Source of the DNA: Zygnema cylindricum
Taxonomy: Eukaryota > Streptophyta > Zygnematophyceae > Zygnematales > Zygnemataceae
DNA length: 64,000 nucleotides
Direction: 5' to 3'
Assembly: GCA_037447655.1 (NCBI GenBank)
Contig: JBBHKE010002627.1
Location: 62,001-126,000 of the forward strand
A model generated the notes under the pieces. That model did not search any database. It was not told where the DNA came from and saw only the letters and a program-made list of their open reading frames with translations. The position numbers were made by a program, and so were the translations under genes. Positions 1-64,000 of this stretch are shown here, piece after piece (within the stretch, counting starts at the first letter, position 1; every line of letters begins with the position of its first letter).

Positions 1-1198
1 CTGGAGAACTTTAACCACCCCTTCAATGGTCCACAGAACATCACCTTCTTTGCAGCGATGCGGAATCGCTTCAACTGCTTGCTTGTTCATTAATTCTTCG
101 CACTCTTACCCACACTTGACACTTTGTACTTTACATGGTGCATCGTATCATCACGTCACATCAGCAACCTGGAGTGCCATAGGACCGCCACATGGCATCG
201 AGTGGGAGGCCGTGCGCATCCTCCCACCCCTGTATCCGGATGCCACATGCCATACAGTACCCATCTCTAGCAACCGTGAAAGACATATTAAACCACATAG
301 ACCATACATCACACGACCGAGACACATGAGAACAGAACTGGAACGACATTTCTTAGGGGAAAAAAAAATAGAGTAACAAAAAACGAACCACCGCTAAACA
401 AAAAACCTCTGTTAAACGAACATGTATAAAAGAAATCTAAAACAACATTGTATTCCCTCGATTCTCCTCCAACAATGTTGCTATCAGAAAACGATTCGCA
501 GACTTAAATTGGCGATCTCCACATCGTCAATTTGGTCGGCTCGGCCCCTCTTCATTATTATTGCCTGATTCTCCGCCCAAAAGATGGCATTTGAACAAAG
601 GACGAGAGGAACAACACATTATTTCTCAATGCTTATAACTCACCACCAAATACCAATTTGAAAAAAAAAAATCGACTCGAGTTGGTTATCTTATAACTCA
701 CCACTATGTGCCAAATCCAATTCAATTAATTCCAGTTCAATTCCGAACCTGACCGTCTTAATTGGCAAACATAACATGCATTTGCAAAAATGGTTAATTT
801 TCATAAGACTATTTAAGGTAGTTGATTAGTAAAGGTTATCTTATATTATTTAAGGATATTTAAAAATACCTCCAGGCTATTTAAAAATACCTCCAGGCTG
901 TTTAAAAATAGGCTTTACTTAACGTTAGCAAGGGTAAATTTGACATTCGAAGTAATTTGAGGTTCTTTAAGGTTCAGGTGATTTGAGATAATTTGAAGTA
1001 TGTATGGGGTTATGTAAGCTTTACTAGAGGTCTCTTCTCAAGTTTATTTGAGAATATTTGAGATACTCTAACCTTAGTTACGGCAGCGTCAGATTAGATA
1101 ACGAAGAATACCTTGAGGTCCTTTGAGCTTATTCACCACTAAGCTTACACCAAGCTAGGCAAGTAAAGAACAGGTAAGGTGATTTGAGGTTAATAAGA
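1..1198. other. Intergenic, no gene seen
   Basis: No coding exon with recognisable motifs or paired splice sites was found. The sequence is AT-rich from about 360 on, with short direct repeats near 860-910 (two copies of a segment reading ATTTAAAAATACCTCCAGGCT). It lies downstream of the minus-strand Taspase gene and could contain its 3' UTR. Confidence 0.5.
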
Positions 1199-1757
1199 TT
1201 AGTTCATATCGTTTGTTTGAGAGAAAGAGAGAGAGAGGAGCAGGGACAGGGAGAAGAAGTGGGAAAGGGAGAGGAGTGAGGGAGAGGGAGAGAGAGAGCG
1301 AGAGGGAGATAGAGAGAGAGGTGGGTGCGTGTATCGCACCACAGGGCGGGGCATGTTGGAGGCGAAGTAGGCGACACCAAAGGAGGCGGCGCAGTGTGAC
1401 GCGACGACCTCCGCCGACTCCAGCATGCCACTCTGCCAAGGGGGAGGGCTGTGAGGGGGGGAGAGAGAGGGAGGAGGGGAAAGAGAAACAGGGAGGGAGG
1501 GAAGGAGAACGAGAGGTGAAGGAGAGAGAGGGAGGGAGAGTGCGAGTGAGAGAGGGAAGGAGAGGGAATGCAGAGAGAGCGGGAGTACGAGAAGCGAGAG
1601 CCAGCAAAGGAGAGAGAAAAAGCGCGGGAGGTAGATTGACGAAGAGAGCGGCAATCCGAGAGGCAGACAGGGGCAGAGAGAGAGGTGCGGCGCATTGAGA
1701 GGCCTAGAGAGCGTCAGCAGCTGCCCGCATGCAGCGCTGTGCCGCAGGACCTCCTAT

Positions 1758-1846
<89 letters not shown>

Positions 1847-4800
1847 GGAAAGAGTGAGAGAGAGAGCAGAGTGAGAGAGAGCGGAGAGAGTCGGAGAGCG
1901 AGCGAGGGAGAGAGGGAGACAGAGCTCGGCCTCGCACCTGGCAGTGCCCCTGCAGCAGCAGTACCCCCGCCTGGGTCCCCCTTCCCTCTCCCCCCGCCAG
2001 CCTCGCCGCCTCCCGCAGCACCCCCTCCAGCGCCTCGGAGGACCCCCCCTCGGCCCTCCCGGCCTCCTCACACGCCCTCCGCGCCGCGCCCGCCCGCATG
2101 AGCGCCTCGCCCTGCCCGGAACAGCTGGCGGCCGTACATCCTGTTTTGTCCTCTAGCGCCCAGCACCCGGCACCGGGTAGAGCTGCCTCGCCCACACGCC
2201 CGCCGACCTGTCTCTCCCTCCACCAAAGTATATGAAACATATAAGAGAACAGAGGAATGTGATAGGAGAGTGGATATTGGACACGGCACCGGCTCTTTCT
2301 CGCTCCCCCTTTCTCTCCCCCTCTCTCCACCTCTCTCCACCTCTCTCTCTTTCTCTTTCTCTACAACTCTCTACTAGTGACTCGACGTCCTCTCTCCACC
2401 CAACATTGAGAAATTGCGAGAAAATGTCCACTGGGGTTTCAGTAGGAACGCTGGGACTCTCTCTCCCTCACTCTCTCCCTCCCCCTTACTTTCATGGCTA
2501 TCCCCCCACTGGAGACACCGGCCGCAGCTCTCCCTCTCCAGTCGATACACACCGCTCCCACTGTGTCCAGAAGCTCCGTCTCCTCTCCCTCCTCTCCGCC
2601 CTCACACTCCTCTCCCTCCTCTCCCTCTTCTCCTTCCTCTCCCTCCTCACCCTCTACTCCTCCATTCCCTCCCTCTTTCCTTTCCTCTTTCTGGTCCCCC
2701 GGCTCTCCTTCCCCTTCTCCACACTCAAGCCTCGCATTCCTCTGTTGCTGATTTCCCTCCTTCGCCTCTCCCTCTCCCTCCCCAACGCTGTCTGGCGGAC
2801 CAATGAGAAGCGTCTCTTCCCCTCTCTCCCCTTCCTGTGGGGGCGACTCTCCCTCTCTTCGCAGCCTCTGCCCTGCAGAACAACGCAGCCATCAGCGCTC
2901 TCCCTCTTCCACTCCCTCTCCCTCCCCTTCCTCTCCCTCCCTTTTCCCACCCCTTCACCCTCTCCTACTCTCCTCTCCCCTCTCCCTCACTCCACCTTCC
3001 TCTTCAAACGACACGCGACATCTCCTGATTATCTCTCCCTCCTCTTACCTTCTTCTCTCCCTCCACCTTTTGCTGACCATTCTCCACCGCGCCTCGTTTT
3101 TCTCCAAGGACTCTCCCTTGCCCGCTCTCTCCTCCTTCCCCAATTTTTTGCTTTCCCTCCCTCTCCTTCCTCTCCCTCTTCTCCTCCTCCACCATGGCCG
3201 TGTACTTCTTCCACTGCCTCCTCGCCCTCTCAGACACCATTTCCTGCCAATCCCTCCCCTCCCTCCCTCCCCTCCCTGTCAAAGCCTTTACCCCTCCCTC
3301 CTTTACCCCCCCCTCTTCACCATCTGCGGCACATTCTCCTCCTCTCTCCCTCCTCTACCTCCTCAAATTTAGCGTGAATTCTGTGAAGCCGCAAATATAC
3401 ACACTTCCCCCAATGCAAAAATTCTCCTCCCCCTCCCCTCCCTCCTCTCTCCTTCCTCACCCTCCTCCCTGCCTACCCCCCTGCCCCCATTTTTTTTTTC
3501 TCTCTGCTCCCACGGTGCTACCATGCATTCGTTTTTCCAATCCACACTAACAACTTTGTCCCTCTCCTTCTCTACCTCCCTCCCCCTTCTCGCCCCTCCC
3601 TCTCCCACCAAAGCAAAAGCTCCGATTCTCCTCACTCCTTTTCCTCCTCTCTCCCAGCAAAACACAAACATTCTCCTCCCTCCTCCCCTTCTCCGGCTCT
3701 CTTGCCCCAAATAAAATCACGCACATTCTCCCCCCATTTCCCCTTCTCTCTTCCTCCTGTCCCCCCAAAAAAACTCTCCCACTCTCTTCCTCTCCCTTCT
3801 CCCCTCTCCCCTCTCCCCCTTCCCCCAAAAAACATTCACATTCGCTTCTCTCTCCCTCTCCCTCCCCTCCCTTTTCCCCTCCAAAAGAAAACTCACACTC
3901 TCCTCCATGAGCACTTCGGGACAGTGTTCCGCCGCCCACAATCTCGCTCCCTCTCCCACTAAGAATCTGCACCCTCTCCCTCCACCCCCTCCAGCCCCGT
4001 CCCCTCCCCTCTCAATTCCTCTTAACTCCCCTCTGTATCACATCAGTACTCCCTCTCCTCCCCCGCCCTTCCCACTCTTCCTCTGTCGCTCTTCAGCTCC
4101 TCCCCCCTAACAATTCTCGGATCTCTTTTTTCTAAACCCTCTCTGTTCTCTTTTCACCCCGGTCTTTTCTATCTTCTTTCTGTTTCTCGTTTCTCCCTTA
4201 GCTCCCTTCCCTCTTCTCTCTCTTTTCTCTTCTCTCCTCCCTTCTCCCTTCTCACTTCTCCCGCCCCTTCTCCTTTCCCTCCTCTCTTCCCTCTCTTGCC
4301 TCTCCTGTCGTCCGTCTCCCCCTCTCCCTCCTCCCATGGGCGGCAATCTCCCTGGCACCATTTCTTCCTTCTCTGCCTCTCTGCCTCTCAGTCTCTCTCC
4401 CTTTCCCGCACTCTTTCTTTCTCTCCCTTTCCCCTCTCCATCTCCCTCTCCCCCCTCTCTCCCTCTCCCCTCCCTCCCTCTCCCTCTTCCTCCCCTCCCT
4501 CTCGCCCCCTCCCCTCCTCCCTCTCGCCCCCTCCCCTCCATCGCCCCCCTCTCCTCCCTCTCACCCCCTCCCCTCCTCCCTCTCGCCCCCTCCCCTCCTC
4601 CCTCTCGCCCCCTCCCCTCCTCCCTCTCGGCCCCTCCCCTCCTCCCTCCCCTCCCTCCCTCCCTCTCCCTTCCCCCCCCCTCACATCGGTCTGACTCTCC
4701 CCACTGGCCCCGCCCCCCCGGCTGCTGCCTCCGCCAGCCGCCCCGCCAGAGCCGCCGCCCACCGGACACCTGTCCCCGCACCCCCCCCCAGGCCCCTCAG

Positions 4801-5376
4801 ACAATCCCCGGGAGAGGGAGAAAGAGGGAGAGAGAGAGAGGGACAAGAAAGAGAGGGAGAGAGAGAGAGACAAGAAAGAGAGGGAGAGAGAGAGAGAGTC
4901 GGGCGTCACCCGGCACGGCCCCCACGGCCCCCCACAGCTCGCCCCCCCTGGCCGTGACGGCAGCGTCACACTCCACCCTCCCCCCCTCCGTGAGATTCGC
5001 GCCCGGCCCCGCGTTGGCCTCCCCGCACCCCTGCCACCCCCCCCCCCCCCACCCCCCTGAGAAACCCTCCTTCCCGAACAAACTTCACAAATCCCTCCCC
5101 CCACCTCCCTCCTCCCCCCTCGTCCCTTCCCTCTCCTCCCACCTCCAGCACGCGTATGGCTTCCACCACCGCCCTCAGGCAGGCGCCTCCGCCTCTCCCT
5201 CCTCCTCCCTCCTCCCCTCGCCCCTCGCCCGCCTCCTCCCGCTGCCCCCCCAGCATCGCCTCCTTGGCCGCCTGGCAGGCCCTCGCCATGGCCGCCCTGT
5301 AGCGCGCATGCGCCGACGTGGCGTGGCGTCCGGCGCCCACGTGGACGGCCACCGCGAAGCGCGGAGCCTCTGCCAT
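1199..5376 (-). CDS. TASP1: Threonine aspartase (Taspase 1), 8 exons
   Basis: Exons in transcript order: 5376-5143, 5030-4910, 4769-4685, 3966-3897, 3243-3049, 2867-2490, 2207-1938, 1432-1199. All junctions are GT-AG and keep phase, giving 528 aa. Family motifs appear in the correct order: FAVAVHVGAG at the N-terminus, NAGPGANLTEGGRVECDA, FLVGEGARLWAAEH, MVSERARRQWKKY, the autocleavage site LLD/TVGAV with nucleophile Thr about residue 337, VSSGGIAMK, and GRVGEAALPGAGCWA. Taspase 1 is an N-terminal-nucleophile hydrolase related to L-asparaginases. It cleaves itself before the Thr and then cuts substrates after Asp. The protein is longer than usual plant members because a Glu/Gly-rich loop (residues about 236-330) precedes the catalytic Thr. 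Start chosen at MAEAPRF, just before the first core strand. Least certain are the acceptor at 2867 and the C-terminus after about 1320, which translates a GA repeat into Ser/Leu. The introns are purine-rich on the sense strand. Confidence 0.86.
1759..1846. repeat. (GA)n microsatellite
   Basis: An almost uninterrupted AG dinucleotide run, with further GA-rich sequence from 1218 to 1320 and 1840 to 1925. It lies in the last intron of the Taspase gene, between the exons ending at 1938 and starting at 1432. Confidence 0.95.
2285..4680. repeat. 2.4-kb polypyrimidine/polypurine low-complexity tract
   Basis: The plus strand is overwhelmingly C and T (CCCTCTC-type degenerate repeats) for about 2.4 kb. 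The only clear breaks are at about 2490-2575, 2840-2890, 3190-3245 and 3900-3970, which are exactly where Taspase exons read on the minus strand. Such mirror-like purine/pyrimidine DNA can form triplex (H-DNA). That is general knowledge and has not been tested here. Confidence 0.85.
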
Positions 5377-6899
5377 GCCCGCCTGCGGCTTGTTAAATCG
5401 ACGAGGCGGATGTGTTGCCGCACTCACTTTTCCCGCGCAAAAAACGTCACTTCTGTCCGGCACACAAATAAACATCCGTACACTGTAGTAGTCGTACCGT
5501 ACGACCCAACCGGCACGTACTGTACTGTACTGTAGCGCCTCCAATTGGATTCGCACGTGTGAACTTTGAACTTCGCAATTTACATTATGGCGGGCTTATC
5601 CCACGCTTCATCATCCTTCTTCTCTTTTACCTCCCATGTCGACTATCAACCTCCCTCCCCCTTCATTTCCATGTGTATTTCCTCTCTTGAGCCGCAGATG
5701 TTGGACGTGTTCGTCCGCGCTCTATCTCTTCCTCCACCCTTTGAGCTCACGCATCTAATTCTACCACGATGTCACACAATCGCATAAGTTGTAGCCTCGA
5801 GAAGAGCTAAAACACATGGGGCTGAAAAACATTTGCTGCAGGTGTTGGATATGCTCGTTTCACTAGAAGCTATTACCAACCTGCCACTCTTTGTCAAACC
5901 TTCCTCTACACCGTCCATCGCTACTGGGTTTAAGGATTTAGTATTGTCAGAAGCTACGACCAAATTAGTGTTATTAACGCTAATAACTATGGGGATTGTA
6001 GTTTCTAACCTTACAATGGGCGAGTATCCCCAAGCCATCTTCCATCCAGCACTTTACACGAAACTTTCACGTCCATTCGAGACCTCGATGTGCATTTGGT
6101 TTAAAGTACCTTGTAATGGCGAGATCTTCATGCCTTAATGAAGACAAAGGAGGATAAACTTCGTCTCAGCTCCACTACTTTTTGCTACTGTCCCTTTCTC
6201 TTTCCGCCGTATAACTTTTCAAGCGATTCGGGCTGTTTAACATTAAATCCTAGCTCCTTCTTGTGGTGACACAATTGAGGTCTTCCGGGGGCCCCGTCCC
6301 TTTGTCCACTGGTCAAGCTTTCATGTAGGCTCTCACCCGAGATGAGAACCTTATTCAAGGCAGGCCCTCTACCCACATCTCATTAAAGGACAATTGTTGC
6401 CAATCATGTCTTCGCACCGACGTTTTGATGGCCGTGGTTTTGATATATTCTTTTGCATTTGTTTGATAAGCTCATGCAATACCGTCGAGTCACTCACCAC
6501 CTTGTAGCATCACTCGAGACCATTGATTCTATCACATATAGCGCTACGATGCATTCTCCTTTGACATTGAGGATGACTTTTCGACTGGACTTCGCCTGAA
6601 AAGGGGAGTGGGACACGCTAGCTAAATCACTTCGTTGCAAGACTACCATATCGTCCCTTGCCCCATTACTCGCCCTTAAAGCAACAAGAGTCTCAAAAAC
6701 AAGTTAAAGGTACGTTAACGAATCATGAGATCAAAATTAGTTGGAGTTCTTTTGGTCTTTCCTTCTAACTTGTGAAGAAAAAATATGGAACATTGAGTAT
6801 GTGGATTTGCGCCAACTTTAAATATCAATATAATCTACACGAATTCCTTAATGGACAGTTTGGAAACTTCAACCGTGGATTTGTGATTTCCTCACGATA
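5377..6899. other. Intergenic; Taspase promoter side, no gene seen
   Basis: The first 200 bases upstream of the Taspase start are richer in CpG and include a short TACTG run near 5517-5533. No convincing exon was found in the rest. A minus-strand open stretch at 6185-6376 could be the decayed downstream part of the reverse transcriptase at 6960-7440, but I see no diagnostic motif. Confidence 0.4.
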
Positions 6900-7440: not shown

Positions 7441-7895
7441 TAACAAATGAGATGATACATAATTAAACGTTTACGATGTCACAAGTAAAATGACGTCTAA
7501 AAATTGCATATCGTCAACAAATGTCACGACTTTAAATGAAGCTTTTGTGTTTGGACATTGAACCACCCTGAAAATTATACGGAGAATCTTCACTTCAAAT
7601 CAATTTATCTCATTTCTAAGGGGGTGTCCCCATGTAATCGGTACTTTGATAAATTATTTTGGATTGTAGTGAAGATTCTCCGTACTACTTTGAAGAGCGT
7701 CTCAATGTGCAAAAATAAAATTGGAACTTTGAAATGTGACGGTTGTAGACGTAGGTACAACTTGTGAAGATTGAAGACGACTACGAAACTTTCGACGATT
7801 GGTGACACCAACAAAAACAACAACAGTTGTAGACGTCTAGATTTTGTGAAATTGTAGATGTTTAGGGTTCGGTGACATTGTGACGCCATGCTCAC

Positions 7896-8121
7896 TGTTG
7901 ATTTCCAAAACATCCGGGATTCGGCATGTCCCACACTTAGGAAAATTGAGCCGGCCAAGGTTCGAACCTGGGGCCTTTCACTTCAGCTGCGAACGCACTA
8001 CCACTGTGCCACCAGCTCGATGTAGAGATTGGCGGGTCCGTACCCTTTTCTTACGGGCGGCTCAGTATGGATATTCCATATTCTACCCCGTATTGAACCG
8101 GCTTCACGTGCCAATCCAACA
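7896..8121 (-). repeat. 3' LTR of the TRIM
   Basis: 226-bp repeat, differing from the 5' LTR by roughly a dozen substitutions and one indel. The divergence implies the insertion is not brand new. It contains the second tRNA-like module at 7948-8018. Confidence 0.88.
7948..8018 (-). ncRNA. tRNA-like cloverleaf inside 3' LTR
   Basis: Second copy of the 71-nt tRNA-like module. It keeps the A box and a B box with one change at its last base. The 5-bp T stem and the acceptor stem are retained with minor changes. Confidence 0.72.
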
Positions 8122-8135
8122 CCCCCCCCCTCACG
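8122..8135 (-). other. Polypurine tract of the TRIM
   Basis: The minus strand reads GTGAGGGGGGGGG directly before the 3' LTR start TGTTGG. This is the expected position for plus-strand priming in LTR retrotransposons. Confidence 0.75.
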
Positions 8136-8212
8136 GGAAAGGCGGTCAAACCATCCGATATCCCGCTGGCTCCGATACCATGTTGATTTCCAAGAAATCC
8201 GCAATCCCGCTG

Positions 8213-8224
8213 GCTTTGATACCA
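8213..8224 (-). other. Primer-binding site (initiator tRNA-Met type)
   Basis: The minus strand reads TGGTATCAAAGC immediately after the 5' LTR. It is close to the plant consensus TGGTATCAGAGC, complementary to the 3' end of initiator tRNA-Met. A second PBS-like copy, TGGTATCGGAGCC, lies 47 bases further in, together with a duplicated LTR end. Confidence 0.8.
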
Positions 8225-8451
8225 TGTTGATTTCCAAGAAATCCAGCATTCGGCATGTCCCACACTTAGGAAAATTGAGCCGGCCAGGGTTCGAACCTGG
8301 GACCTTTCACTTCAGCTGCGAAAGCACTACCACTGTGCCACCAGCTCGATGTAGAGATTGGCGGGTCCGTACCGTTTTCTTACGGGCGGCTCGAGTATGG
8401 ATATTCCATATTCTACCCCGTATTGAACCGACTTCATGTGCCAATCCAACA
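8225..8451 (-). repeat. 5' LTR of the TRIM
   Basis: 227-bp long terminal repeat in minus orientation, ending directly at the primer-binding site. It contains the tRNA-like module at 8277-8347. Confidence 0.88.
8277..8347 (-). ncRNA. tRNA-like cloverleaf inside 5' LTR
   Basis: The 71-nt minus-strand sequence folds as a full tRNA: acceptor stem GAGCTGG with CCGGCTC (one G-T pair), D stem GCAC/GTGC, anticodon stem TTCGC/GTGAA, T stem CCAGG/CCTGG with loop TTCGAAC. It has an A box (TGGCACAGTGG) and a B box (GGTTCGAACCC), the internal Pol III promoter. The anticodon loop AGCTGAA would give CTG, but position 33 is G instead of the universal U. A working tRNA is therefore unlikely; a tRNA-derived promoter or pseudogene is more probable. 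Confidence 0.75.
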
Positions 8452-9074
8452 CTCACTTGTGACAACGTCGACATCACTGATTAAAGAAATTTTCGCCATG
8501 GTTTCCCGATTATATTTTTTATACTTTTCTCACTCGACTTGCCATTAAGAAAAAACCTAAATATTGGCATTTTCTTTCAAAGATCTTTCATTTTATACCA
8601 ATGTTGTTGTGTCTCATTATAAAATCTATGAGATAAAAGCGATAGTGTGAGAGGGAGAGGGGAGAGGCGATGACGGCGAAAAGTTATCCCAAGGACCCAT
8701 GAATGAAAGTGGAGGTCCGAGACCCCTGCAAAATTTTTTTCCGTACATGCGCGTGGTTGGCACGGAGAAAAATAGCGAGTACTCTCCCTCGTGCAAAAAA
8801 TTCCCCACTCGTGTGGCGCTTGCGTGGATCGTTTTTCATTGGCTCTTTGGGCGGTGCTTGAACTAAAAACACCCCCTCGAGGTGATTTTGATGAAGTTTT
8901 TTGATGGGCTCGATTCTCTTGCCCGGGGGTCGAAAAGTCTAAAACGCCAAAATGTGTTCACATGGCGACAAACATGGAGTACATTCAAAGTGTAGGATTG
9001 ACGTTCACTGTACTTTGGTAAAACTAATTTTCTCGTACGGCTGAAGTTTTTCTCAAAGTTTCCTGAATTTTAAG

Positions 9075-36700: not shown

Positions 36701-38699
36701 CATTAGCACAATAAACCTTGTATCACCATTAGAACTAACGTTTTTCTACCCCATTTAAATCAATTTTTCTGTTCACAAACATACCATTTTTATTTGAAGG
36801 ATCGAAACCTTTCAATTAAAAATCCGACAAGGATAGACACAGAAAAAAGAGTTTAAAGGATGAGATCATTGCTCTGATAATGATTCACAGTGTACCTTAA
36901 ACAGATGAGCTTTTTGATTTTGAGGTCGTTGCACTATAGAAAATGTTCAGTTTTGTGAGTAACCGCACGTAAAACAACACTTACAAATGTACAAAGTGTG
37001 CAATTACTCACGTTTTACTCGTAAGACCCTGAGTAATTTTCGATAGTGTGATTTCCCTATTAAGGACAAAAGCAATGCACTCATGACGCCAGTATTTTGC
37101 ATGAAAAAAATCATTCCAATGAGTCGTTAAAAACGCACGTTTGCATCAAGGTAAGTCCCCCTTTCCAAGCACTCCCCAGAGCTTGAAGTGCACCCGAAGC
37201 CATGCTCTCAACGGATTCATCCAAACTTTTCAGGCCCTGCATTCACCCCAAGGCCCAGAGTTGGAATTATCATGTACACCCGGATTTCAAACATTAAGTA
37301 ACCATTTGGGACATACTTATTAACATGTAATAATAATTTTGTGTAAATTTTACATTGATATAAGTTACAGTCATGGCAGTTCAAATGGCCGAAAAAAACC
37401 GTGCTACGGAATAAGGTTCAAAATACTAAGTAATGGCGCAAAAGGAGCCACGTCATCAGACCATAATTTAGTGAAGCTAACACTATACCACTTTGACGTG
37501 TTCAAGAAATTGTTCAAGGTGAAAAATAATTCAAGTTGAGAAATTCAATTTGCCATAAATTACATGTCACGATGTTCAAATCACCAAACAAAAGAAATTA
37601 ATTTTGAGACGCCAACTTTTGTTCAAAATCCTGGTTCTTCCTGTAGATCACTTTGTAGTTTTATGCCAGCAACAAACAACAGGTGCGCAAAAGGTTGTAA
37701 ACCAGATCTATAAGTTCCTCATCGAGATCTTTTTCTGCCATGATGATTGGGACTTGTAGAGCAGATCCCATTTTAGGATGGTTGATTGGAACCTTCATTG
37801 GTAAAATGAAGAGTGTTAAACAAAGGACAAGGAGAGACTAAACACCTGACCAAGTAGAAAGTCCTTGCTGTCATCATCCATGTTGGTCCCACCTTCTTCT
37901 ACTACTTCTGTGCCCGTCTTAACCTTACTTTGTTGCCCTGATTCAACACTGTCGGAAGTAACTGTGACGACTTTTTCAGGGACCTTTTGCTTGCTCGCTT
38001 GACTGCCGTCAGTTTCGTCTTTTTCGGATGCTTTGTCCTCTTTAGAATCGATCTTCTCGGATTCTTGTGAATCAGCATTGCGCTTTGCTTCCAACTCCAT
38101 CTCTCGCGCTTCTGCTTCCAACTGCTCAAAAACTCCGGATGCTGCGTCTACTGCCTGCATTGCATACACAGATTTACACAAACTTATACAAACGTCCATT
38201 GGCTCCAGGAAGACGGTTCTACAAGACAGATTTACAGGAAGCAGCTTGATTAAAAATCGCCGAAAGGATTTGGAACGAAGAAAGGTGTGGATCGATCGTT
38301 GGAGGTTGTACAAAAATGCTTGAATAATGCAACTCTGACAGATATGCCTACCGTTTTCTGCGCTTCTTGCAGAACGGTCACTACGGAAGCCCAGCTTCCC
38401 CAACCCCATACTGCGGCGGATGAGGTACCCGTGTTCTCTTTAGTCACCAATGGCTCTCTCTCCTCCACATCCGAAGTACTCTCCAGTTTCGTTGCTGCCA
38501 GCTGCTCTTTTTTGGATTCAATTGGCTGTTTCGTCTCTTCCGTGCCTGAACTGTCCGTCAGACTACCCTTGTCTGACGGAAGTGCCTTGTCAGACACCAC
38601 TTCCTTCTTGTTGACAGGAGCGACATCATTGGACTGAATTGGGGCAGGAGAAGCACTCTCTGATGGAATGGGTTTCGTTGTCTCATCATTAGAGCTCAT
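30761..38699 (-). CDS. FAM114/NOXP20 (DUF719) family protein, 9 exons
   Basis: Exons in transcript order: 38699-38352, 38154-37846, 37236-37139, 36552-36486, 35134-34922, 34638-34373, 33507-33417, 32387-32144, 30975-30761. All are GT-AG, every junction phase agrees, and the product is 616 aa. Recognised from the order of conserved blocks: WGWGSWASVVTVLQEAQK, SMASGALQALGSAWKGGL, RVLEYVGKETINVIAQETGI, TYDHCFYIYGGPEHMEELEA, ALSSHHTLLSTRARAKMSDE, MTKRTTERLESIRTEG, RVAEVAASCVALLLQAGG, and the C-terminal QDGLKHLVYVLLSTTL. The N-terminal 200 residues are polar, Ser/Glu/Lys-rich and probably disordered. Family function is poorly known; animal FAM114A proteins are linked to Rab2 and Golgi trafficking. 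The first exon and upstream region are duplicated at 41054-43357. Confidence 0.88.
32429..32451. repeat. (AC)n microsatellite
   Basis: About eleven AC units in a FAM114-like intron, just upstream of exon 8 in transcript order. Confidence 0.9.
32512..32702. mobile_element. TA-type MITE copy in FAM114 intron
   Basis: Diverged termini CACCATGAATCGCTAG and CTAACCGCGATTGAAGGTG. The interior word AGCTGGCACCGAATTAATG is shared with the copies near 22.5 and 33.1 kb. Confidence 0.55.
32770..32975. mobile_element. TA-type MITE relative, subgroup of 30101
   Basis: The interior words CACTTAAATCATTTTTTGTC and AAGTGTGCAAAGAGAAAAAG match the element at 30101-30321. Ends are blurred, so the borders are approximate. 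Confidence 0.45.
33013..33226. mobile_element. TA-type MITE copy in FAM114 intron
   Basis: The right edge CACAGTGTA and the interior words TTGAATGACGTGG and CCGGCACCAAATTAATG match the family. The left edge is diverged. Confidence 0.5.
34140..34385 (-). repeat. Reiterated exon-end segment in FAM114 gene
   Basis: The end of exon 6 (minus, encoding SISTAKEMASG then a GTAGGA donor) recurs twice downstream. The copy at 34262-34300 encodes ASISTSKEMASGQ. A shorter copy at 34150-34180 encodes SLSTAKW followed by GTAGGC. Each is followed by A-rich sequence with CCCTAAAAA words. Only the first copy is used in the in-phase model. Confidence 0.65.
36721..36894. mobile_element. TA-type MITE relative in FAM114 intron
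   Basis: The right end AATGATTCACAGTGTA matches the family terminus. The interior resembles the 30101 subgroup (word ATTTAAATCAATTTTTCTGTT). Confidence 0.5.
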
Positions 38700-38950
38700 G
38701 GTGTCAGGCTACAGAACCTGCAAAAACAATAATGACAGTGTCGACTTTTTTTGAAATGCGTATAATACGTTTCGTGAATAGCAGGTTAATGCCGATGTAT
38801 AAGTACATAATGCCGGCATAACCGTCTATTGCATAGCACAAACATCAGGCAAACATAGAGGGACAGATAGAGAAATACAAAGAGGAAAAGGAATAAGAAC
38901 TAGGTAAGGAAGAACAAAGGCTTTATTACAGAACTCGCAATGAGCAAACC

Positions 38951-40486: not shown

Positions 40487-41053
40487 TAGCGTCGTACTGC
40501 GTAAGTTCCAACCGTACAAAGGAATCGCAAATTTGTAGAGTACAATTTGCGTCACCCTCGAACTTAGGATGTACCAAAATTTGTCGTCTTATATTTTTCG
40601 ACCCACTTCGACGACAAAAAACGTCATCTTCAACCTTATCTTTATGATACATGCGCGATGTGATTTAAAACTAGGGATTTTATGTAAACAAATAGGAACA
40701 CATATTCGCACGTGCCGCAATTTTCGAAGCATTTCACACGATTTTCAAAGACAAAGAAAAGTACGGAAGTCGCTATGTTTTGTCCGTTTGCATATAATAC
40801 GACAAAGAAAATTACACTTTTTGTTTGGTTTTGTCCGTTTTCGTCGAGTACGGATTTTTTTTTTGCACGGGTCTCGAAATTCCGATGCCATTTCACGTCG
40901 ACCGGACAGGAGACGCAAAGGCAAACCGCAACTTCTTCAACCGTGAAACGGTACAGGGTGGAAGGCGGTACGTCTACAATGTCACGGTAAGACATGCGAC
41001 GTCACACAAGCAGTTCCAAAAAATAACGTCCGACAACACAGATTGTAGACGTT
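40487..41053. other. Unique spacer between duplication units
   Basis: 0.57 kb present once, between units A and B. It holds short overlapping open frames on both strands without motifs. It may be the interior of the element whose GGGTGTGTCCCC terminus lies at 40431. Confidence 0.5.
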
Positions 41054-41127
41054 AAGAAAGGTGTGGATCGATCGTTGGAGGTTGTACAAAAATGCTTGAA
41101 TAATGCAACTCTGACAGATATGCCTAC

Positions 41128-41475
41128 CGTTTTCTGCGCTTCTTGCAGAACGGTCACTACGGAAGCCCAGCTTCCCCAACCCCATACTGCGGCGGATGAG
41201 GTACCCGTGTTCTCTTTAGTCACCAATGGCTCTCTCTCCTCCACATCCGAAGTACTCTCCAGTTTCGTTGCTGCCAGCTGCTCTTTTTTGGATTCAATTG
41301 GCTGTTTCGTCTCTTCCGTGCCTGAACTGTCCGTCAGACTACCCTTGTCTGACGGAAGTGCCTTGTCAGACACCACTTCCTTCTTGTTGACAGGAGCGAC
41401 ATCATTGGACTGAATTGGGGCAGGAGAAGCACTCTCTGATGGAATGGGTTTCGTTGTCTCATCATTAGAGCTCAT
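41128..41475 (-). pseudogene. Duplicate first exon of FAM114-like gene
   Basis: Encodes the same 116 residues as the real exon 1 (38699-38352), from MSSNDETTKPIPSE to VLQEAQKT, and keeps the GTAGGC donor. No second exon follows before the unique spacer. It is either a dead fragment or an alternative promoter and first exon that splices over unit A to the exon starting at 38154, which would keep phase 0. Confidence 0.8.
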
Positions 41476-41823
41476 GGTGTCAGGCTACAGAACCTGCAAA
41501 AACAATAATGACAGTGTCGACTTTTTTTGAAATGCGTATAATACGTTTCGTGAATAGCAGGTTAATGCCGATGTATAAGTACATAATGCCGGCATAACCG
41601 TCTATTGCATAGCACAAACATCAGGCAAACATAGAGGGACAGATAGAGAAATACAAAGAGGAAAAGGAATAAGAACTAGGTAAGGAAGAACAAAGGCTTT
41701 ATTACAGAACTCGCAATGAGCAAACCGTCCGGAGACAGGAAGACTAGAAGCAAAATAGATGTCCGCTTAAACTCTGAAGATGATGGTCGGGCTCACATGT
41801 AGGACCACCTAGTAAGAGTCCCA

Positions 41824-62394: not shown

Positions 62395-64000
62395 GGAAGC
62401 CGCCATTAGAGACGCTATAAAATTGGCCATTAAACTTGTCATTGAACCCACCCTTCAAGTTTCCACGAATCCAAAGAAGAGCATCCCTGCCTAGGCCACG
62501 AAGAATCGAGTGGAATCACGTTAAGGCTCCAGACGGAGAGCTGCTTGGGAATAACAAAATATGCATCTGTGTATACTGCAATTCTGAATACAATGGTCAA
62601 GCAACTAGGATTAGAAACCATCTGCTTGGAAATATTAAAAGTGGGGGCATTAGAGCTTGCATTTTACGTCCAAATGAAGTGCAAGCGGAGTTTAATGTAT
62701 CGGAAACTGCAAAATCTTCTCATGGCTCTCAGAAACGTGTCATATCCGATTTGGATGAACTCACTGGATGTCTAAGATCTGGATCTACAAGGTGTTCAGA
62801 CAAAAATAAATAATGTATATAATATGCATAACAAAAAAAAGGTGGATGTCGCAGGGGCAAAAGCTTTCTTTGCCAATGGTTTGCCGTTTCAACTATTAGA
62901 CGACCCATATTTTAAGGCAGCAGTGAAGAAGACCGAGGATATAGGGTCGTTCTACAAGTTACCTCACAGAAATACCATGAGAAATCGCCTTCTATGTGAG
63001 ACGAAAGCAACGATCAGTAGCGATTTGGCAAGCTCCTTGGAGACCATAAAAAAAATCACTAGTGCCTCAATCACATCAGACGGTTGGACGGCCGTTGATG
63101 ATACGCCTCTCTTAAACATTTTAGCTGTCACCCCCAAAGGTGACATGTTTCTCAAGGTGGAAGACACTCGGGGGAAAATCAATGATGTTGAATATGTTTG
63201 TCAAGTGTTAGAGAAAGGAGTTATTGCGGTGGGGGTCAAGCATGTGGTACAAGTTGTGACAGATTCTAATCATGTGAAGAAGGTTGCCGCCTCCATCCTC
63301 ATGGAAAAATATCCTTCCATCACGTGGACGCCATGAGCTGCCCACGTATTGGACCTAATGTTAGAGGATTGGGGCAAATTATCATTTATTTCAACACCTA
63401 TCCGAGAGGCGAAGGAGGTGTTGAAATTTATCATGAATCATCACATGACAGCAGCCCTATTCCACAAAATATCTAAACTTAGGCTTTTGAAACCTGGAGG
63501 GACCAGGTTTGCTGCAAATTTTATTATGATACAGAGGTTTTTAGAGGTGAAGGATAGCTTAGAGATCTTGATGTTTGATGAAGCTTACAAACAATGGTTA
63601 TTGAAGTCTACATACAAGTTAGAGGGTGGAAAGATTAAAGGCTTTATCTTGAACTCGAAGTTTTCGACGAGAGTGACTGAGGCTGTGACAGTTTCAAAAC
63701 CTGTAGTGCGGCTGATGAGGGAGTGCGACAAAGGGAACCCAAACGCGGGGAAGGTTTATCATGGTTTTTACACTATTGGGGAGTTCTTAGTAAAGTTATC
63801 CAGCAATGGAGGAGCGCGAAATTACGAAGGCTTGCAGATTCTAGATAAGTTGAATGTGTCTTTCATTGCCAGATGGGAGATGGCACATAGCCCCATATAT
63901 GTTGTTCGCTTTGTACTCGATCCTGAGTACCAAAGTGACGACTATGGTCAACTTTCAAATGTGAACATAGTGAAAGGTTTCCAAATAATGCTTGATAAGA
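62395..64000 (+). pseudogene. hAT transposase with BED finger, broken and truncated by window
   Basis: A BED-type zinc finger is seen at 62500-62700 (RRIEWNHVKAPDGE, then CVYCNSEYNG with a later H and C). A DUF659-like segment follows in another frame (62797-63336: AKAFFANGLPFQLLDDPYF, SDGWTAVDDTPLLNILAVT). At 63334 TGA replaces the Cys codon expected in the family motif W-T-P-C-A-A-H, after which the same frame stays open to the window end (LRLLKPGGTRFAANFIMIQR). The two parts differ by a frame near 62740-62810, either an intron or a frameshift. hAT transposases excise and insert elements with 8-bp target duplications. With an internal stop this copy is probably inactive. Element ends were not found. 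Confidence 0.82.

Follow-up and report, generated by a model that had tools for sequence, protein, structure and literature searches.

A Helenus/TRIMp3-type TRIM family with a tRNA-like module in each LTR in the genome of Zygnema cylindricum

Anatomy of the element and its family

The window, the whole 64,000-nucleotide stretch of Zygnema cylindricum DNA that we analysed, contains a complete TRIM, a non-autonomous LTR retrotransposon of 556 bp, on the minus strand at 7896-8451, and whole-length relatives occur elsewhere in the genome. Two copies of the target-site duplication (TSD) CTCAC border it at 7891-7895 and 8452-8456. Named in element sense, its minus-strand parts are a 227-nt 5′ LTR (8225-8451), a 103-nt internal region (8122-8224) and a 226-nt 3′ LTR (7896-8121); the two LTRs have TG..CA ends and are about 95% identical. 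The primer-binding site (PBS), TGGTATCAAAGCCAGCGGG, a pattern with 174 exact sites in the genome, adjoins the 5′ LTR at 8206-8224, and the polypurine tract (PPT), GTGAGGGGGGGGG, adjoins the 3′ LTR at 8122-8134 (both minus strand). We take this PBS to be of plant type and to match initiator tRNA-Met. The Cassandra PBS, given as TGGTATCAGAGC (PMC7215508), supports this assignment. Most copies read have an internal region of 57 nt; that of the window element is longer because of a 44-bp tandem duplication of the LTR end and PBS (8153-8240, with units at 8153-8196 and 8197-8240, minus strand), which also produced a second PBS copy, TGGTATCGGAGCCAGCGGG, at 8162-8180 on the same strand. At less than 1000 bp, with two TG..CA LTRs, a PBS beside the 5′ LTR, a PPT beside the 3′ LTR and a TSD, the element has the build of a TRIM, and it lacks coding capacity: the sole frame of at least 150 aa across it (8026-8484, plus strand) runs from stop to stop and is antisense to the element. 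All the parts named in the earlier note (TSD, TG..CA LTRs, PBS and purine tract) were found in the sequence; the orientation had to be corrected, as the element lies on the minus strand and 8225-8451 is hence the 5′ LTR. In subfamily A (described below), GACCGGCTT, directly before the purine tract, can pair by eye with AAGCCGGTC in U3, a pairing that would put the purine tract into a hairpin.

We searched the 353-Mb genome for further members of the family, which proved to be large. Exact sites numbered 174 for the PBS versus 1 for its reversed control, and 270 for a module 20-mer versus 0. Whole-element searching yielded 54 matches from 40 scored of 958 candidates, LTR-only searching yielded 78 matches from 40 scored of 964, and 110 distinct units were resolved among the loci examined. 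An exact 5-bp TSD was present in 35 of the 61 intact-ended units; shuffling the pairing of flanks 2000 times gave 0.69 such units on average and at most 5. The earlier note had proposed such a count of LTR copies that have TSDs. Most intact-ended units had two LTRs (42 of 61), the others having one (12), three (4), four (2) or five (1).

An LTR of this family borders each of the 66 PBS sites examined, on one side or both, so that the exact PBS led to no autonomous partner: the 57 loci that hold these 66 sites, among the 100 listed of 174, contained only the window TRIM family. Of the 110 units, 36 have a Copia-like stretch no more than 700 bp away on one or both sides, a figure without a background control that names no partner. 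At L004/L030, L045, L053, L062, L097 and other loci, TRIM copies lie inside Copia coding sequence, on one strand or the other. In L039 (991-1935), a 243-bp tandem repeat consists of a solo LTR and a short host spacer, which indicates that LTRs spread by local duplication too. In the left flank of the TRIM array in L003, A-box-like repeats of the form TAGCTCAGTGGTAGC stand in tandem.

Elsewhere in the window, about 200 bp from the TRIM, lies a 33-nt inverted repeat (7571-7691) with arms 82% complementary and 55 nt apart, possibly a MITE or hairpin element. Two minus-strand frames at 38250-38708 and 41002-41484 encode near-identical proteins and represent a local duplication. Long low-complexity frames, CT/GA-rich, occupy both strands at 1155-5535, and a frame at 62776-63336 resembles, by eye only, part of a hAT-type transposase.

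The tRNA-like module and its place in the LTR

Each LTR carries a tRNA-like module on the minus strand, at 8276-8347 in the 5′ LTR and at 7947-8018 in the 3′ LTR. ARAGORN identified both as tRNA-Gln(ctg), and Infernal scored them at 51.7 and 48.8 bits, respectively, against the Rfam tRNA model (RF00005; gathering cut-off 29 bits), with all stem pairs standard. The Infernal comparison, proposed in the earlier note, thus bore out its account of a tRNA-like module with paired stems in each LTR, except that both modules are 72 and not 71 nt long. Scanning the whole window with Rfam at the gathering threshold returned no tRNA, for which the faster filters are presumably responsible. A scan of 7890-8460 with E up to 1 returned two matches, both RF00005 tRNA, and no 5S; a Cassandra-type module is therefore absent. 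The cloverleaf is the minimum free energy (MFE) fold of the 5′-LTR module and of one subfamily-A copy, not of the 3′-LTR module nor of one subfamily-B copy, and the fold z-scores of the modules are only about -1. Because of this, the evidence for tRNA likeness is the covariance score, not fold stability.

The sequence of the 5′-LTR module contains an A-box-like TGGCACAGTGG (8330-8340, minus strand), with low diversity across 172 distinct LTRs, and a B-box-like GGTTCGAACC (8288-8297, minus strand), likewise placed in the 172-LTR alignment. We take these to be the A and B boxes of Pol III, both of which the earlier note had described in the module. A functional tRNA would have U33 and a kept anticodon; here position 33 is G, as the earlier note remarked when it doubted a working tRNA, and it is G in both subfamilies; the anticodon is CTG in subfamily A and CTC in subfamily B. 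Across modules from nine sources, ARAGORN called tRNA-Gln(ctg) for most, with one Leu call and one His call. For genome annotation this is a warning: many such LTR modules may be entered as tRNA-Gln or other genes by ARAGORN and, probably, by further tRNA finders.

The distinct full LTRs numbered 172, divided into subfamily A (129), subfamily B (40) and three single old copies, and the window element groups with subfamily A in the alignment. The module occupies the same place in all 172, as expected of the fixed LTR part that the earlier note had supposed. We collected 130 distinct module sites with enough flank, 126 of which were assessable; the other four belong to one locus that was added after the BLAST database was built, and were read as LTR. 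Both U3 and U5 accompanied the module at 113 of the 126 sites, U5 without U3 at 11 and U3 without U5 at two, while none lay outside an LTR; since most loci had been selected through a match to the LTR, the PBS or the module, the tally is not a census and unusual modules are under-represented. In a module-only search, the 40 places scored of 1081 first-look candidates were all inside LTR matches. Two observations had been named that would speak against a fixed LTR part, namely LTR copies without the module and a module that is a SINE with its own TSDs. Among the loci examined, LTRs that skip the module were not seen, leaving aside copies with a truncation or rearrangement at that point, and the LTR alignment, inspected by eye, showed neither a SINE tail nor a private TSD around the module. 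A SINE2 would stand alone, away from LTRs, and have a tail and TSD of its own, a description that none of the 126 sites fits. The fixed place in 172 LTRs, together with the 270 versus 0 exact 20-mers, rules out a module that arose by chance.

Elements of this type have been described before. TRIMs with tRNA-like LTRs were named Helenus and, with Cassandra and Ajax, proposed as TRIMp3 (Kojima 2024, PMC10886601). The earlier statement that a tRNA module is known from no named TRIM family consequently does not hold, Helenus being one as described there (Kojima 2024, PMC10886601). Among the literature matches listed, in which subscription journals are mostly uncovered, there were no other reports of TRIMs with tRNA modules.

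RNA structure, transcription signals and truncated copies

The module is mostly 72 nt long in subfamily A and 73 nt in subfamily B, which has one extra D-loop base. Over the 172 LTRs, mean site diversity was 0.127 in U3 (positions 1-84), 0.098 at positions 85-105, 0.080 in the module and 0.111 after it. The first 20 nt of the LTR were conserved to the same degree as the A box (0.039), and conservation of the B box (0.079) did not exceed that of the entire module. Copies of both subfamilies scored 47-57 bits against Rfam tRNA, and one old copy, L107, had no tRNA match at E 0.01.

The anticodon stem is not part of the promoter. Subfamilies A and B differ there at five of ten positions, and all five pairs are kept (TTCGC/GTGAA versus CTGAC/GTCAG). 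The anticodon helix was 100% paired in 19 chosen LTRs, with three pairs changed on both sides, and 93.8% paired in 16 chosen modules, with two such pairs. Across 159 ungapped modules, 96-98% of stem cells were paired. In the analysis of the 19 LTRs, pairing fell to 22-39% when the pairs were slid by one to three columns. None of 500 column shuffles reached the covariation score there, whereas the number of both-side pair changes was reached by 76 of 500 shuffles for the 19 LTRs and 65 of 500 for the 16 modules. The double changes in the anticodon stem mainly represent one split, that between A and B, and copies within a subfamily have scattered broken pairs. By a post hoc calculation, if five of the ten stem bases are substituted at random, every pair survives in 1.1% of cases; with a transition bias, the figure is 3.9%. 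Two hairpins lie in U3 on the minus strand. In the hairpin or palindrome TATGGA-ATA-TCCATA (8396-8410), the A/B difference keeps the pairs; it was aligned by eye and left uncounted because the MAFFT alignment shifts it. The second hairpin (8367-8389), of the type CCGCCC..GGGTACGG, was included in the pair counts and likewise differs between A and B with its pairing kept; it shows one compensatory pair between copies, and this pair is broken in the 5′ LTR of the window element. Folding the complete LTR as a consensus gives an alternative structure, with U3 paired to parts of the acceptor and T arms. Collectively, these comparisons are suggestive of an RNA structure that is kept beyond the A and B boxes alone.

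Directly after each module is a T4 run, a candidate Pol III terminator, at 8271-8274 in the 5′ LTR and at 7942-7945 in the 3′ LTR (both minus strand). Such a run occurs within 8 nt after the module in 161 of the 169 LTRs of subfamilies A and B, and in none of the 169 upstream of the module within the LTR. A further T4 lies farther downstream in 4 of 169; the window 3′ LTR has a second T4 closer to its end. Approximately 30 nt upstream of the module, 98 of 169 LTRs have AATAAA and 58 have AAGAAA. Of the 129 A copies, 71 have the triplet CAA within 10 nt before the module; of the 40 B copies, none does. For flowering plants, upstream TATA and CAA and downstream poly(T) are described in only part of tRNA genes, and for Arabidopsis, CAA triplets within 10 nt are described as acting as starts (PMC11700998). 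The signals in the LTR appear to fit Pol III transcription, although subfamily B is without CAA.

Copies truncated at the 5′ end have a pattern of their own. In 58 PBS-anchored units, the 5′ LTR was complete in 38, started at positions 3-8 in four, started at position 85 or beyond in 11 and was absent in five. The 11 truncation starts were 87, 99, 101, 117, 118, 124, 144, 145, 188, 202 and 210, and none of the 58 units started at LTR positions 9-84. Under an even spread, the probability of such a gap is 0.006, or 0.009 without L066, in a small sample and for a test formed after the data were seen. Five more truncated copies from the whole-element, LTR and module searches started at 85, 99, 105, 106 and 113; their fetching favoured partial matches with much of the module, and the resulting p of 0.0016 is indicative only. 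Were the RNA to start just before the module, U3 would be absent from its 5′ end, and the gap at 9-84 would follow. The truncation pattern is thus suggestive of an RNA start at that point.

Several individual cases stand out. By eye, the BLAST starts at 22 (L054), 39 (L039), 106 (L109) and 118 (L066) were judged to be artefacts of an indel, inversion, duplication or interruption; L066 was kept among the 11 (10 otherwise), L054 and L039 are outside the sample, and L109 was counted as complete. Excluded from the further truncated copies were L037 (95), the second fragment of L076 (148) and the starts at 3-8 in L029, L034/L036 and L058. The L053 copy, which begins at 85/86, interrupts otherwise continuous Copia coding sequence, is flanked by what may be a 5-bp TSD (TCGTG) and may be an integrated reverse transcript. 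Several hundred bp of the Copia target are gone in L082 and L097, resembling ordinary deletion. Truncations at the 3′ end stop at many places, U3 included. An origin of the isolated R-U5 fragments (L037, L046, L049) from integrated strong-stop DNA was weighed and set aside; L037, the right flank of which also borders a complete unit, looks like a local duplication.

Building on the anatomy, the copies and their TSDs, which are established, we infer from sequence a start, a stop, a polymerase and a helper for this family. The reading that we consider probable is that of a Helenus/TRIMp3-type TRIM that would be transcribed by Pol III, would have the tRNA gene as its R region and would be mobilized in trans. 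Pol III would start just before the module of the 5′ LTR. Part of the transcripts would stop at the T4 of that LTR, yielding a tRNA-like RNA of roughly 90 nt, and others would pass this weak T4 and terminate only at that of the 3′ LTR, yielding a genomic RNA of roughly 370-380 nt for a typical copy. Both ends of the genomic RNA would share the tRNA gene, so that R would be the tRNA gene. Initiator tRNA-Met would prime this RNA at the PBS, proteins of an autonomous LTR element would copy it in trans, and insertion would create TSDs of 5 bp. Probably the tRNA-like fold is preserved as an RNA structure as well, and the module does not act as a translating tRNA. Standing against this reading are the z-scores of about -1, a cloverleaf that is not the MFE fold in the 3′-LTR and B modules, the lack of a match in L107 and the lack of CAA in subfamily B. 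Also counting against it are anticodon-stem changes that trace mainly to one split, a B box conserved no more than the rest of the module, the equal conservation of the first 20 LTR nt and the A box, the small set of truncated copies with the deletion-like L082 and L097, the alternative fold of the LTR and a PBS search that led to no autonomous partner. We propose, tentatively and as a possibility rather than an expectation, that the tRNA-shaped RNA makes up the entire R repeat, with an RNA that starts just upstream and ends at T4; that its fold may serve retrotransposition through RNA end definition, strand transfer or packaging; and that the 5′-truncated copies may stem from failed reverse transcription and thereby mark where the RNA starts.

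Other origins of the module were weighed against Pol III transcription from a tRNA-gene R. The family could be an ordinary Pol II TRIM whose ancestor acquired a tRNA gene or the head of a SINE, now a passive passenger; the AATAAA that precedes the module in 98 of 169 LTRs could then be a Pol II poly(A) signal, and the ordinary fold z-scores agree with a passive module. This signal is not fixed, however, AAGAAA being there in 58 of 169, and further points against a passive module are the T4 kept directly after it in 161 of 169 LTRs, the strong tRNA scores in copies of both subfamilies and an anticodon stem that changed with its pairing kept; we regard such an origin as unlikely. Spread of a dispersed working tRNA gene for translation, Gln or Glu by its anticodon, would agree with the ARAGORN call of tRNA-Gln(ctg) for most modules and with their complete stems, but the G33 of both subfamilies and the change between CTG (A) and CTC (B), by which decoding identity is not kept, make this very improbable. 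Similarly, many Helenus modules are described as failing tRNA isotype checks (Kojima 2024, PMC10886601).

Hardly any weight can be given to a recent SINE insertion into one LTR or to a chance cloverleaf, even though the loci read are biased towards LTR-bearing ones and a degraded tail could be missed. The tails of plant SINEs vary. None of the 126 assessable sites lies outside an LTR, all 40 places in the module search are in LTR matches, no LTR that skips the module was seen, and exact 20-mers number 270 versus 0. An old SINE origin, before the family amplified, is possible.

Relation to known elements

The likeness to tRNA-derived SINEs (SINE2) lies in Pol III A and B boxes within a short mobile element. 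In contrast to these SINEs, the window family has LTRs, a PBS, a PPT and 5-bp TSDs, and no SINE tail by eye. The parallel with Cassandra drawn in the earlier note is apt, since both have a Pol III gene inside the LTR. Cassandra, as described, also has the PBS TGGTATCAGAGC and tandem arrays, and multi-unit transcripts have been reported for it (PMC7215508); its module is 5S rRNA, whereas that of the window family is tRNA, and the sequences were compared at the PBS only. Units of two to five LTRs in the window family resemble the arrayed plant TRIMs described as L3I2 and L5I4 (Gao et al. 2016, PMC4717578). In the main text of that paper, the term tRNA is absent, and 5S is in no family but Cassandra (PMC4717578).

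The closest likeness is to Helenus, and the window family is a rich new Helenus/TRIMp3-type example of a class already known. Helenus, by its description, is a short TRIM with a tRNA-derived A/B-box sequence in each LTR and a PBS and PPT between, and it shares 5-bp TSDs in plants, solo LTRs and tandem arrays (there LTR-11_DR) with the window family (PMC10886601). The tRNA-derived LTR sequence and the 5-bp TSD, a feature of Helenus in plants and fungi, are both present here. The GGTTC of the Helenus box B is found in GGTTCGAACC of the window element and kept in most copies. Compared with TRGCY..YGG, the box A of most Helenus LTRs, the TGGCA..TGG of most modules listed departs at Y, and TGGCT occurs in L061 and L090.

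The plant hosts of Helenus on record in Kojima 2024 number one, Selaginella moellendorffii (PMC10886601), and the present family adds a second plant host to the class. That the host is a green plant is also indicated by its PBS and by an RBBP5-like protein: among the 120 listed of 976 database hits to this protein, those with a species name are 47-55% identical, one hit without such a name is 88% identical, and Selaginella is not among the names. Whereas Helenus-1_SMo is described as having an LTR of 120 nt and an internal region of 85 nt (PMC10886601), the window family, compared with it by description, has LTRs of about 227-231 nt and an internal region of 57 nt, in a different plant. Pol III transcription of Helenus itself is unproven according to its description, which stresses the promoter boxes and reports predicted structures that do not support tRNA function (Kojima 2024, PMC10886601). 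With about a hundred units read and two subfamilies, the window family provides enough to begin testing what the module is for. If selection does act on the fold and not on the two boxes alone, TRIMp3 elements would have to be seen as mimics of tRNA, beyond promoter thieves. The window family further differs from Helenus in having a full cloverleaf and compensatory anticodon-stem changes between its subfamilies.
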